Assembly (NCBI GenBank): GCA_031260245.1
Contig: JAIRKH010000083.1
Coordinates: 1-64,000, forward strand
Length of the DNA stretch: 64,000 nucleotides
Reading direction: 5' to 3'
Source of the DNA: Treponema sp.
GTDB lineage: Bacteria > Spirochaetota > Spirochaetia > Treponematales > Breznakiellaceae
Shown here: positions 10,328 to 62,498 of the stretch, piece after piece
Layout of the letters: each line of letters starts with the position of its first letter
Numbering within the stretch: the stretch's first letter is position 1
Position numbers and translations under genes: made by a program
Notes under the pieces: model-generated
The model's database searches: none
The model's input: the letters and a program-made list of their open reading frames with translations, nothing else
What the model was told of the DNA's origin: nothing

Positions 10328-10363
10328 GTGTCTGACACCCGTACGGTTCAAGATGTCTGACAC
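10328..10363. repeat. Palindrome GTGTCTGACAC (10328-10338) plus degenerate copy ATGTCTGACAC (10353-10363)
   Basis: Direct sequence match, intergenic upstream of the GH3 gene. Confidence 0.85.
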
Positions 10364-47513: not shown

Positions 47514-48458
47514 TTATGTCCATTCTGTAATACTTCGTTTTGAAATTTCCCACTCCATTCCATTAAGAATAGATCCTTTTATATTACAATACTTACAAAA
47601 TGGGATTGGTTTACTTAAAAAACAAGCAATTTCCGCAGTATCTTTCGCTTCATATATATTTATGTAATCATCCTTTGTTACTTTAAGATCACAATTAAAA
47701 TATTTATTGAAATGCCGTATATTCGGAACCACGGAACAAGGATATAATCTCCCATTCTGTAATTGAATACACGCATTGGATTTAAAGCATAACTTGAAAT
47801 TATCTTCTATATCTTGTTCCCCTTGTATATCCAATACATCTTTACGCATGGTATTCGTTCTTTCATGCGGGCAATATATTTTTACATTATGTTCTTCCGC
47901 CTTAGCTTTTATGGCATTAATATCGATATTTATAGGATACCAGCTAACATGAATAGAAACTCTGTTTTTACAGCATAGTTCCCAAAATTCTTCCGTTTGT
48001 TTTAATAACAATGTACCGTTAGTAAGTATATTTATAAATTCATAATCAAACAACTTTCCAATTATTTTTATCACATCGACAATTTGAGGATGAAGCAAAG
48101 GTTCGCCACCTAATAAAGCAACTCCATGAATTTGCCTGTCCGACAATCTTGATAGACGTTCACAATCCATTTCAAATCCAGAAATATTTAAATATTCTTT
48201 TTCAGCAATTGGGGAAAAATGACTACAGCCTTTGCAAGCCAAATTACAATGTTCTGTAAGATGAACCTCAAAATACAATTTTGTTCTTGGTTGTAACCTT
48301 TTATTTGATAAGATTTTTCGCCGAAATAGTAAGATATCTTTTGGAATTATTGTTTTTATAATATCCTTAAAACCATTGTAAAAATCCATTTGAACCTCCA
48401 AAACATTTTGTGAAAATTGCCTCAAAAATTTTTCCAATCCATTCAGCGGGCATTTCAC
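47514..48458 (-). CDS. Radical SAM domain protein (AT-rich gene)
   Basis: YFEVHLTEHCNLACKGCSHFSPIAE (CxxxCxxC); GVALLGGEPLLHPQ; C-terminal Cys-rich FCKYCN; likely start at the internal MDFYNGFKD. Confidence 0.88.
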   Translation of the reverse strand: MKCPLNGLEKFLRQFSQNVLEVQMDFYNGFKDIIKTIIPKDILLFRRKILSNKRLQPRTKLYFEVHLTEHCNLACKGCSHFSPIAEKEYLNISGFEMDCERLSRLSDRQIHGVALLGGEPLLHPQIVDVIKIIGKLFDYEFINILTNGTLLLKQTEEFWELCCKNRVSIHVSWYPINIDINAIKAKAEEHNVKIYCPHERTNTMRKDVLDIQGEQDIEDNFKLCFKSNACIQLQNGRLYPCSVVPNIRHFNKYFNCDLKVTKDDYINIYEAKDTAEIACFLSKPIPFCKYCNIKGSILNGMEWEISKRSITEWT

Positions 48459-49003: not shown

Positions 49004-49015
49004 GGGGGGGGGGGG
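49004..49015 (+). repeat. Poly-G tract (12 G)
   Basis: tac-GGGGGGGGGGGG-acatcagctc; within the small ORF 48951..49178. Confidence 0.9.
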
Positions 49016-58521: not shown

Positions 58522-58529
58522 GGTGTTGT

Positions 58530-59113
58530 GTGTCTGACACCAAAGCAATTCTCATGGCAACCCCGTATTACAGGTATGAGAAGTTTACGAATACTTATCT
58601 ACGGAGCGACGTATCACGTTACGTCGAAAATAGACCACGACGACATGAGCCTTCTTGATCCCCTATTCAAGCTATTATTCCTTTCATTCGTCAAAAAAGC
58701 CAAGCGGAAGTTCCATTTCCAGTTATGGGATTTCTGCGTCATGGGAAATCATATTCATTTTTTGATAAAGCCGGGTAAAGACGCTAATTTATCGGAGATA
58801 ATGCAATGGATAAAGTGTAATTTCGCGAAAGCGTGGAACAAGGCGCACGGGCGGAAGGGACATGTGTGGGGAGAGCGATTCTACTCGCGAATAATCGGTG
58901 GGATAGAGGACTTTTTACGGACGCGGGAATACATTGCGGAAAATCCTGTGAAGGCGGGGTTAGTGGAGCGGGCGGCGGAGTGGGCGTTTGGGAGTCTGTA
59001 CTACCGACTACATCGACAATCCGACTTATTAGACGAGCCTATTCTCGACGTATGAGCGGTGTCTGACACCGTTGCACCGCGTGTCAGACAAAACCCGTTG
59101 CGTGCGTCTAGCC
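58530..59113 (+). mobile_element. RAYT element copy D (left palindrome 58530-58540; right palindromes 59059-59069 and 59081-59091)
   Basis: Same left end (GTGTCTGACACCAAAGCAATTCTCATGGCAA) and right end (GAGCGGTGTCTGACACCGTTGC..GTGTCAGACAAAACC..GTGCGTCTAGCC) as copy C. Confidence 0.87.
58576..59055 (+). CDS. RAYT/TnpA_REP-like transposase, copy D (start at MRSLRILI)
   Basis: [74 protein letters not shown]. Confidence 0.95.
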   Translation: MRSLRILIYGATYHVTSKIDHDDMSLLDPLFKLLFLSFVKKAKRKFHFQLWDFCVMGNHIHFLIKPGKDANLSEIMQWIKCNFAKAWNKAHGRKGHVWGERFYSRIIGGIEDFLRTREYIAENPVKAGLVERAAEWAFGSLYYRLHRQSDLLDEPILDV

Positions 59114-59253: not shown

Positions 59254-61266
59254 TCACTTCCTGAACCATCCGGGCGATTTACCGTAGATGTTCTTGAATA
59301 CCCTACAGAAATACGCTTGGTCTTGGAAGCCAGTTTTGTCGGCTATTTGGGCTATAGTAGCGCCCGAATGAATGAGAAGGTCAACGGCCATGAATACGCG
59401 GTAGTGGTTGAGATACTTCCAAAGGGACATCCCCATTTCCTTGCGAAAAATTCTGGTGATGTAGTCTTCGCTACTGCCTACCGCGTCCGCGAGCTTCCAT
59501 CGGAAGATGTGTCTGTGCGCGTACTGGTTGAAGTAGAGGATAGCCTTCTTCACTAAAGCGCCAGTAAATAGAGGGAGGATAGAGTCGCCCGCCGCGATAG
59601 ACCTCATACGCATACAGAATGCCGAAGAGCCGGCCACAGAACGGTTGCACAATACCACACGCGAGTATTTACTGAGTTCCTTGACAAGTTCAGGCGACTT
59701 TATGTGTTCGGGTACCACAACGATGGGCGTCATGGTAGTCGCCGGATGATTGCGGATAATCTTTATCATTTCAATGTCTATGTCTCCAAGGCTGACGACG
59801 TCCGGCGTAACTTTGGAAACCGCGTTAAGGAAATCTTCCGAAGGCGCGACGTTCACCCCCATGCCTTCGTCTATCCATGAAGATAGGAGTTCTCCGTTGG
59901 AAGCTTCTCCAGAAGCCAGTCCTTCCTGTCCTTCAATAAACAGTATACTGCCGTTTTTGGAATTCTTCTCTTCCAAAGCCTGACTTATAGTCTCGCCCTC
60001 AAGCTCGTCGCTGAAGCATAAAAACGGGGTTTGAAAAAACTCTGGATGCGCGCGGAAGAGGGACCCTAACTTCGCGGGGGAAAGGTCGCCGCGCTCCGCG
60101 TCCGTACGGATTGAGCACAGGATGAAACCGATTCTGTTGGGCGTATTTAAGGCTCTCGCCACGTTTCTGACGACTGGTAAACCGAGCAGAGCCTTCGTAT
60201 CAATAGGGACGTCGTTCAACGACAGCGCCGCTTTGCCCTTGGACGGTTCGGTTACCCGTCCCGAAAACGTGGTCCACGGGAGCGTAATTGAACAGGAGTT
60301 TTCACCGCAATCCGCGCTTCCGCCGTGCATGAGCGTGATGCGCTCTATTATGGTGAACGTCCATTTCGCCATTCCACCGCTCGCGCCCGTAAAGCGAATT
60401 TCGAGTCCTCTCTCGTGGAAATGCGCGGCGGGTTTGTCCCGATACTGGTTCTTTATGAGCGCGAATACATGGGAGAGAAGTTCCTCATCTCCTACCAATA
60501 AGGGAAATTCCCCTTCCAGTTCGGGCAGAATGGAATGGATATTAAACAGGGCTTTCTTGAAAGATAGGTCGTCGGTCTGGGATATGGCTAGCTCTATCAA
60601 GCGATGCATATGATTCTGGCGGTCCACGATGAGGTTCTGAAGGGCTTTTAGTTTGCTGAAGATTTCAGGGTTTCGCTCTAGGGGTACCTCCGCCATGAGG
60701 CTCTGAACCGCGGAGATTACTTCTTTAAATGGTTCGTTCAGGTTATTTCCCACGGTTGCGAAGAACTCGGTCTTTGCACGCTCTGAATTCTCGGCGAGTT
60801 GTTTTGCATGGAAGGTCTCTTCAAAGAAAGCAATGCCCTTGAAGGCGTTGCTCATAGCGGAGCGGAGTTCTTCCAAAATCACCCCGTCAAAAAACGGGAT
60901 ATTATGAACAAAATAACCTAACGGCTGATTCTCAATGAATAGGGGTTGAACCAGAAAGATTCCGTTCTCGAAGTATTCCTGCATATCTTGAGGGAAAAGT
61001 CGGCGCGCGGGAAAGAGGCGCGGAATCGTGTTGACGCCTTGAGAGGAGAAGCCGCCGATATATTCGGACGCGTCTTCGTCTTTGTAGGCGACCAGAAGCG
61101 CGGTTGTTACTCCTATCTTGGGTAGGCGTCGAGCAATGCTCTCAACCAGAGACTTCTTGTCCTTTATACCAAGCAATTCACATTTGAAGGAATTAAGAGC
61201 GCTATTTCTCTCTTCTCTTTCGTGCAAGGATAGAACATAATGCTGTTCCTGTAGGCAGGAAACCAT
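59254..61266 (-). CDS. AraC-family HTH regulator with HisKA-like and receiver-like regions; probably the 3' part of a phase-variable gene with 61361..62377
   Basis: C-terminal AraC HTH (IFRWKLADAVGSSEDYITRIFRKEMGMSLWKYLNHYRVFMAVDLLIHSGATIAQIADKTGFQDQAYFCRVFKNIYGKSPGWFRK). Frame is open upstream to the poly-G tract. Confidence 0.88.
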   Translation of the reverse strand: MVSCLQEQHYVLSLHEREERNSALNSFKCELLGIKDKKSLVESIARRLPKIGVTTALLVAYKDEDASEYIGGFSSQGVNTIPRLFPARRLFPQDMQEYFENGIFLVQPLFIENQPLGYFVHNIPFFDGVILEELRSAMSNAFKGIAFFEETFHAKQLAENSERAKTEFFATVGNNLNEPFKEVISAVQSLMAEVPLERNPEIFSKLKALQNLIVDRQNHMHRLIELAISQTDDLSFKKALFNIHSILPELEGEFPLLVGDEELLSHVFALIKNQYRDKPAAHFHERGLEIRFTGASGGMAKWTFTIIERITLMHGGSADCGENSCSITLPWTTFSGRVTEPSKGKAALSLNDVPIDTKALLGLPVVRNVARALNTPNRIGFILCSIRTDAERGDLSPAKLGSLFRAHPEFFQTPFLCFSDELEGETISQALEEKNSKNGSILFIEGQEGLASGEASNGELLSSWIDEGMGVNVAPSEDFLNAVSKVTPDVVSLGDIDIEMIKIIRNHPATTMTPIVVVPEHIKSPELVKELSKYSRVVLCNRSVAGSSAFCMRMRSIAAGDSILPLFTGALVKKAILYFNQYAHRHIFRWKLADAVGSSEDYITRIFRKEMGMSLWKYLNHYRVFMAVDLLIHSGATIAQIADKTGFQDQAYFCRVFKNIYGKSPGWFRK

Positions 61267-61360
61267 TCGGTACGTCTCGGATTTGAGCGCGTGATCGACG
61301 CCGATTCGCCCGCATACATAATCAAAAATCTCGAAGAAACAGCCAATATCTTCGTAGCTA

Positions 61361-62377
61361 TCAAGTATCTCCGTACATAATTTCGTAGCCGTTTCTAGGA
61401 AGAGCTTCTTTTGTTCCCCCCCCCCCCCGATTAATATTTAATATAAGGGCGTCAGCAAAGGCTTCTCCACCTTGCAAGTTCAATTTTTCCTGCGTCCCGC
61501 TTCTTCTTTCGCTGGGTCTGACGACGAGACGGCAGGGCAGGGTTACATCTCTGACATCATGTTTAGGGTCTCCCATCAGAGCTTTGAGGATCTTAAACGA
61601 CTCAGCGCTCATCTTCGTATAAGGAATTTCCACAGTTGAAAAGGGGATTATTTGGCTTTCAATGGAGTTGTTAAATCCGCCGATTCGGTACGAGTCTGGT
61701 GGAAACCCCTGTTTCTGAAGGTAGAGAGCGGCTGGCAGAGTCATCAGGTCGCTTGAGCCAATCAGTGTGTCAAAGTCTTGCGTCGGTCTCAAGCCCCGCG
61801 CCGCGAAAAGTTGAACGCACGCTGAAGCTCCGCGCGCCCAATCAAAAGGGTCGCTTATGAGTCTCTCGTTACAGGAGAGTCCGGACTCCGAAACCGCGTC
61901 CCGAAACCCCTGATACCGGTCCATAGCCGAGTGGTGCGAGGATGGTCCTCTCAAGAAGGCGATGTTCCGCGAACCTGTTTGTATGAAGTAACGGGTCAAG
62001 CTCTTCATACCGTCATATGCGTCAAAACGTACACAGGGGTGTCCCTCAAGCTTGTCCGAAATGGTCGTGTGGGGCAAGTCTCCAAAATGTCGGTGAAAGT
62101 CGGAGAGTTCGGAAAGGCTGGAACAGCCAATAGAGGAACTCCAACTTATCAGTCCATCGAGATTCTGGGCGTTAGCTAATGAGTAGATAGGGTTGCGTAG
62201 GTATTCCATGTTGTCTTCAGCGTTGAGTTTGCCTCCGGGAAATACAAAGAGGCTCGTCTTCTCGTCCATCGCGGCCCGCGCGAAATGGGACCACACGCCG
62301 CAGGCCGAACCGGTGTGTATTGAAGCGAGGACTAGACCAATTTTATTCTTTTCTACCATGTTCATATTATATACCAA
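61361..62377 (-). CDS. LacI/PBP1-like sugar-sensing domain without its own HTH; 5' part of a gene frameshifted at the poly-G tract
   Basis: KIGLVLASIHTGSACGVWSHFARAAMDEKTSLFVFPGG...ISWSSSIG...FIQTGSRNIAFLRGPSSHHSAMDRYQGFRDAVSESGL...FDTLIGSSDLMTLPAALYLQKQGFPPDSYRIGGFNNS. Confidence 0.88.
   Translation of the reverse strand: MVYNMNMVEKNKIGLVLASIHTGSACGVWSHFARAAMDEKTSLFVFPGGKLNAEDNMEYLRNPIYSLANAQNLDGLISWSSSIGCSSLSELSDFHRHFGDLPHTTISDKLEGHPCVRFDAYDGMKSLTRYFIQTGSRNIAFLRGPSSHHSAMDRYQGFRDAVSESGLSCNERLISDPFDWARGASACVQLFAARGLRPTQDFDTLIGSSDLMTLPAALYLQKQGFPPDSYRIGGFNNSIESQIIPFSTVEIPYTKMSAESFKILKALMGDPKHDVRDVTLPCRLVVRPSERRSGTQEKLNLQGGEAFADALILNINRGGGGTKEALPRNGYEIMYGDT
61416..61428. repeat. Poly-C tract of 13 (poly-G on the coding strand) inside the regulator
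   Basis: ttgttCCCCCCCCCCCCCgatta counted directly. Confidence 0.92.
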
Positions 62378-62498
62378 ATCTCACTTCTTGCAAGGATATT
62401 TTTCACATGAAAGCCGCGGTCCAGCCCGCGCCGATTTGCGCCGCCTTTAGGCGTTCACTGCGCTTGAAAGTTCCTTTGCTTTTGTGGTATAGTCTCGT

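Follow-up and report, generated by a model that had tools for sequence, protein, structure and literature searches.

A 13-G tract divides a sugar-sensor/AraC regulator gene of a Treponema species and is a probable slipped-strand switch

The window, by which we mean the whole 64,000-nt stretch of Treponema sp. DNA that was analysed, carries on its minus strand two reading frames separated by a homopolymer of 13 guanines, read directly from the sequence (Table 1). The upstream ORF encodes a sugar sensor whose Pfam matches are confined to Peripla_BP_3 and Peripla_BP_1, while the downstream frame ends in a helix-turn-helix that matches HTH_18 and HTH_AraC, in agreement with the preliminary description of this DNA, which had placed a sensor without a DNA-binding domain before the tract and an AraC domain after it. 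The upstream frame, followed from 62377, meets tandem stops shortly past the tract (TGA at 61363-61361), and its likely start is the ATG at 62359, which is the start common to the congeners. Beyond the tract 720 codons are open, the frame being stop-free down to 59254 (the remaining two frames have 36 and 28 stops), and the tract is the sole lesion in the gene; 12 G would put both ORFs into one frame. The sequence and the stop counts thus confirm the arrangement that had been claimed, including the joining of the two frames at 12 G. A promoter-like site lies directly upstream of the start region. Two further consensus promoter matches, at 61469-61440 and 61674-61647, precede the tract on the gene strand and may provide an internal promoter for the AraC half. 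The first ATG of the downstream frame itself is at 61266, 95 nt beyond the stop, and since no clear ribosome-binding site could be seen there by eye, a restart of translation at this point is possible but not favoured.

Table 1. Positions of the features discussed (in the window, unless another locus is named)
Feature	Position	Strand	Remarks
Upstream ORF, LacI/PBP1-type sugar sensor	61361..62377	-	Peripla_BP_3 E 6.9e-17, Peripla_BP_1 E 2.4e-13
G13 homopolymer tract (site 1)	61416..61428	-	linker between PBP1 sensor and remaining protein
Downstream frame: pseudo-histidine-kinase, receiver-like region, C-terminal AraC helix-turn-helix	59254..61428	-	HTH_18 E 4.3e-20
Promoter-like site (TTGCAA, 16 nt, TATAAT)	62366..62393	-	consensus scan only, 10/12 matches
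G12 run	49004-49015	+	intergenic
Adenylate-cyclase tracts	L215 1502-1511, L216 3369-3380, L217 3368-3379

Runs of G or C in the window become four- to five-fold rarer with every added base, this series ending at a length of 6, after which only one run of 12 and one of 13 are found. Under a first-order Markov model, 0.0009 runs of at least 13 would be expected in the window. The length of the G13 tract is not a product of chance, which it far exceeds at a position where length matters, between two frames of one gene. The number of 13 G in the assembly may represent the consensus of a mixed tract.

The domain picture of the regulator was built from sequence profiles. A profile of 54 homologues recovered the PBP1 and AraC parts, and the XylR-like combination of a PBP1 sensor and an AraC helix-turn-helix in one polypeptide is found in the homologues; in the window these two domains sit in different frames. 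The middle region, previously labelled HisKA-like and REC-like, has no match to a Pfam family for either label, but its profile supports the first by a match to histidine-kinase structures (E 2.8e-7) and, weakly, the second by matches to receiver domains (E 0.03-0.1). The phospho-accepting position of the H-box is a histidine in only three of the 54 homologues, so that the residue required of an active-kinase hybrid two-component protein is generally lacking; the region is therefore regarded as a pseudo-kinase, and one-component regulator is the most fitting description of the protein. The gene would thus encode a cytoplasmic regulator of ~1035 aa, predicted to consist of a LacI/PBP1 sugar sensor, a pseudo-histidine-kinase, a receiver-like region and an AraC DNA-binding domain.

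Is this one gene or two? We examined 80 homologous loci in GTDB genomes across Spirochaetales. Outside the genus of the window, every readable homologue is a single uninterrupted ORF, 996-1146 aa long (a few loci are incomplete because the contig stops within them), and none has a tract at site 1, so that the fused, tract-free architecture that the preliminary description had proposed to look for is indeed the one found, and not the conserved separate genes it had set against it. The clear orthologues found when 201 genomes from the family were searched agree on a single ORF. Denoting the window's genome as G000 and the congeners discussed here as G001, G002, G004, G005, G006, G007, G009 and G011, the gene is intact in G001, G002, G004 and G011 (1039-1085 aa), and three congeners have no match to the regulator gene. 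When the two halves of the G000 gene were compared with G002, dN/dS was 0.096 before the tract and 0.124 after it, at a dS of 0.75-0.87, and purifying selection acts on both halves. With this constraint and no other lesion, the break is either recent or reversible, and since the gene is intact in relatives, it is the tract, rather than gene fission, that accounts for the break. Genuinely separate genes are ruled out by the single-ORF homologues, and a chimeric assembly join by the orthologous coding sequence, which runs on across the tract.

Tracts are also present in sister species, at two sites of this gene, and with one assembly per species their lengths are compared here between species. 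At site 1, where G000 has G13 and a split gene, G002 has an interrupted G8 (GGGAGGGGGGGG) that is in frame and may be decaying; no tract exists in the other congeners that are readable at this linker. At site 2, in the linker that joins the kinase-like region to the receiver-like one, G001 has C8 and an intact, in-frame gene, and in G009 the gene is split at a C14 within one contig. The contigs of G007 and G006 stop exactly at this site, in C13 and C15, respectively, and a G005 contig begins at site 2, with no tract shown. The gene tree puts G006 together with G000, G002 and G004, whereas G001, G009 and G007 fall elsewhere, so that at least three gains of a tract have to be assumed, unless there were repeated losses. 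Both sites are in the least conserved inter-domain stretches of the protein, and an out-of-frame length at either leads to loss of the AraC domain. Tract lengths thus differ between the genomes of different species, with in-frame and out-of-frame states both represented.

The G000 genome (2.34 Mb in 124 contigs) is rich in G/C runs, with 106 of 8 bases or more and 82 of at least 10 G, and a single match in a gene of 3 kb therefore does not, taken alone, indicate selection. We listed 100 of the 106 tracts and read them with their surrounding stretches, and among those read the lengths are bimodal with a mode at 12 (12 runs of 7, 13 of 8, 10 of 9, 5 of 10, 19 of 11, 38 of 12, 12 of 13 and 3 longer). 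Of 77 runs of at least 10, 24 are inside called genes. Among the genes that have a tract within them or at the 5' end are those for lipoproteins (one of them solute-binding), glycosyltransferases, a TetR regulator, an adenylate cyclase, hybrid kinases and a YidC-like/sulfatase protein, the last having in-gene tracts in several congeners also. In the HAMP/adenylate-cyclase gene, a candidate phase-variable cyclase, tracts of G10, G12 and G12 are kept at one 5'-end site in three sister species. One hybrid histidine kinase gene (L154 3483-5768, G000:C80) ends soon past a G12 tract, at 762 aa, while its orthologues have 931-959 aa and no tract; no remainder was found downstream of the truncated gene. 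Across the family, genomes differ widely in how many runs of at least 10 G they have, from 0 to about 290. MutS is present in nearly all of these genomes and is full-length in G000, which rules out the loss of this mismatch-repair protein as a cause of the tracts.

Most intergenic tracts precede a gene or separate two divergent ones, and some have common flanking repeats. Among 53 intergenic G tracts of G000 (L103-L180), 23 have a TATAAT-like box (5/6 matches, at most 16 nt upstream), as compared with a mean of 11 and a largest value of 18 in shuffled controls and with 6 of 53 on the downstream side. Judging from these boxes, intergenic G tracts may tune promoters, as in T. pallidum.

What the regulator may control is suggested by its neighbours. 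Near the regulator in the 80 loci we observed LplB-type permeases (57 loci), LplC (55), solute-binding proteins (49), UxaB-like, i.e. tagaturonate-reductase-like, proteins (46), UxaA-like altronate dehydratases (26), GH88/105 (21), GH28 (6) and pectinesterases (2), where enzyme names beyond the Pfam families come from sequence resemblance and context. The loci include those of T. saccharophilum and T. zioleckii, rumen species that are known pectin users. Linkage to uptake and catabolic genes is thus conserved, though the G000 regulator is itself not adjacent to them, having left its usual neighbourhood and presumed targets; the orthologous transporter (on contig C102) and uxaB-uxaA (on C28) are present and intact in G000. 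Taking the neighbours of the homologues together with these G000 genes, we infer a pectin/galacturonate regulon, and it is a well-founded inference that the regulator probably controls uptake and catabolism of these compounds. Of the earlier wording, "global or carbohydrate regulator", the second term agrees with the pectin/uronate neighbourhoods and the first proved too broad. A G8 run was also seen ~100 bp upstream of the G000 uxaB-like gene (L196 3115-3122; G000:C28 about 12560).

We consider it likely that the G13 is a slipped-strand contingency tract within one gene, which switches a one-component regulator, probably of pectin/galacturonate use. Slipped-strand mispairing during replication would alter the tract by one G, and lengths of 9, 12 or 15 G would be in frame and yield the full regulator, while at 13 G, the assembled state, as at any other out-of-frame length, translation would stop soon after the sensor and the product, having no DNA-binding domain, would be OFF. 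Slippage would flip cells between ON and OFF, presumably in a reversible manner in the living population, which may benefit from the resulting heterogeneity. The different in-frame lengths should all work, since the linker tolerates extra residues. The on/off switch that had been proposed at the outset is in part supported, namely by the tract-free fused gene of the relatives and by the tracts of the sister species.

One may also consider explanations other than a switch. The most serious of these, which we nevertheless judge unlikely, is neutral growth, whereby poly-G accumulates by mutational bias and settles in tolerant linkers, the regulator having been struck by chance and its OFF state being transient and of no benefit. 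Such a process would agree with the abundance of tracts (106 runs of at least 8 in this genome, and 0 to about 290 of at least 10 across family genomes), with the presence of 24 out of 77 runs of 10 or more bases inside called genes of diverse kinds, with the poor conservation of the linkers at both sites, and with a YidC-like/sulfatase gene that was struck in several congeners as well. It is harder to reconcile with a single gene that has gained tracts three times or more, at two sites, within a genus, with five orthologues of the tract-bearing hybrid kinase that have no tract, with an adenylate cyclase that retains its tract at one site in three species, and with a full-length MutS. Less probable still is an assembly artefact, in which the true tract has 12 G, the gene is intact and the thirteenth G is a homopolymer error. 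This is a short-read metagenome assembly, and several tracts in this genome and its relatives are found at contig ends or low-quality C/G ends; however, orthologous coding sequence continues on both sides of the tract, the G009 gene is split within one contig at another tract, and a tract of such length would be hypermutable at 12 or 13 G alike.

Long homopolymers can make polymerases slip, and slippage of RNA polymerase or of the ribosome might produce truncated and full-length protein in fixed proportions from one allele, both of them usable, with no genetic switching. We give this little credence, as the species differ in tract length and some have an in-frame one (G8, C8), and neither a conserved length nor a stimulatory element was seen. 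The loss of the regulator's usual neighbours in G000, as well as the three congeners with no match, could also point to a pseudogene decaying in this species, but that is most improbable for a gene in which the tract is the sole lesion and the 720 codons beyond it are open, with a dN/dS of 0.12 at a dS of 0.75 against G002, and in a genome that keeps the transporter and uxaB-uxaA intact.

The best-known cases of tract-driven phase variation are those of pathogens and of surface antigens. Regulators have been affected in comparable ways: in Bordetella pertussis, a change from C6 to C7 in bvgS truncates the master sensor and turns its regulon off (PMC1891110), so that there, as here, the gain of one base in a coding homopolymer truncates a sensor/regulator. 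In contrast, bvgS has a short C6 in a pathogen's virulence sensor kinase and mixtures have been demonstrated, whereas the present tract has 13 G, belongs to a one-component sugar regulator from a symbiont of the gut and is a proposed switch. Homopolymer mutations in the Campylobacter jejuni two-component pair flgR/flgS alter a whole pathway (PMC8355987), but those are in short A/T tracts and are described as not reversible, unlike the long G/C tracts observed here. Closer to the present organism, length variation of T. pallidum poly-G tracts (tprE/G/J, tprL, tp0126) affects expression, those tracts acting in promoters of outer-membrane protein genes (PMC7864442) and not, as here, in the coding sequence of a regulator. 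As for the protein itself, it resembles E. coli XylR in having a PBP1-type sugar sensor and an AraC domain, the latter matching XylR structures; the matching XylR chains are about 390-410 aa, whereas here ~650 residues, pseudo-kinase and receiver-like, intervene between the two.

The novelty lies in where the tract occurs, within the coding sequence of a carbohydrate regulator in a gut mutualist, and in its recurrence at two sites of this gene among sister species; among the papers searched in full text, only one on a mycoplasma matched, and no earlier report of phase variation in termite Treponema was found. The host habitat is presumably the termite gut, judging from near relatives and from what has been published on these genomes. 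If this regulator of plant-polysaccharide use flips randomly in an uncultured wood-feeding symbiont, it would be a sign that mutualists of the gut hedge their diet in a similar way. A broader proposal, which we put forward only tentatively and with some doubt, is that termite-gut members of the family have a large and apparently unreported set of poly-G/C contingency tracts that switches carbohydrate sensors and regulators (the present regulator, the adenylate cyclase and the solute-binding protein) along with surface genes, many of the intergenic tracts lying beside -10-like boxes. Phase variation would in that case let a mutualist hedge its bets on nutrition, a role other than immune evasion.

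Two other features of the window may be mentioned. The intergenic G12 run has a radical-SAM-like gene on one side (47514-48458, minus) and a thymidylate-kinase-like gene on the other (49369, plus). At 58528-59055 there is a transposase gene of the Y1 type (REP-associated-like), and the palindromes that accompany it, GTGTCTGACAC in 6 copies and GTGTCAGACAC in 11 copies, are scattered throughout the window, with copies such as those at 10328, 33229, 48601 and 59059.
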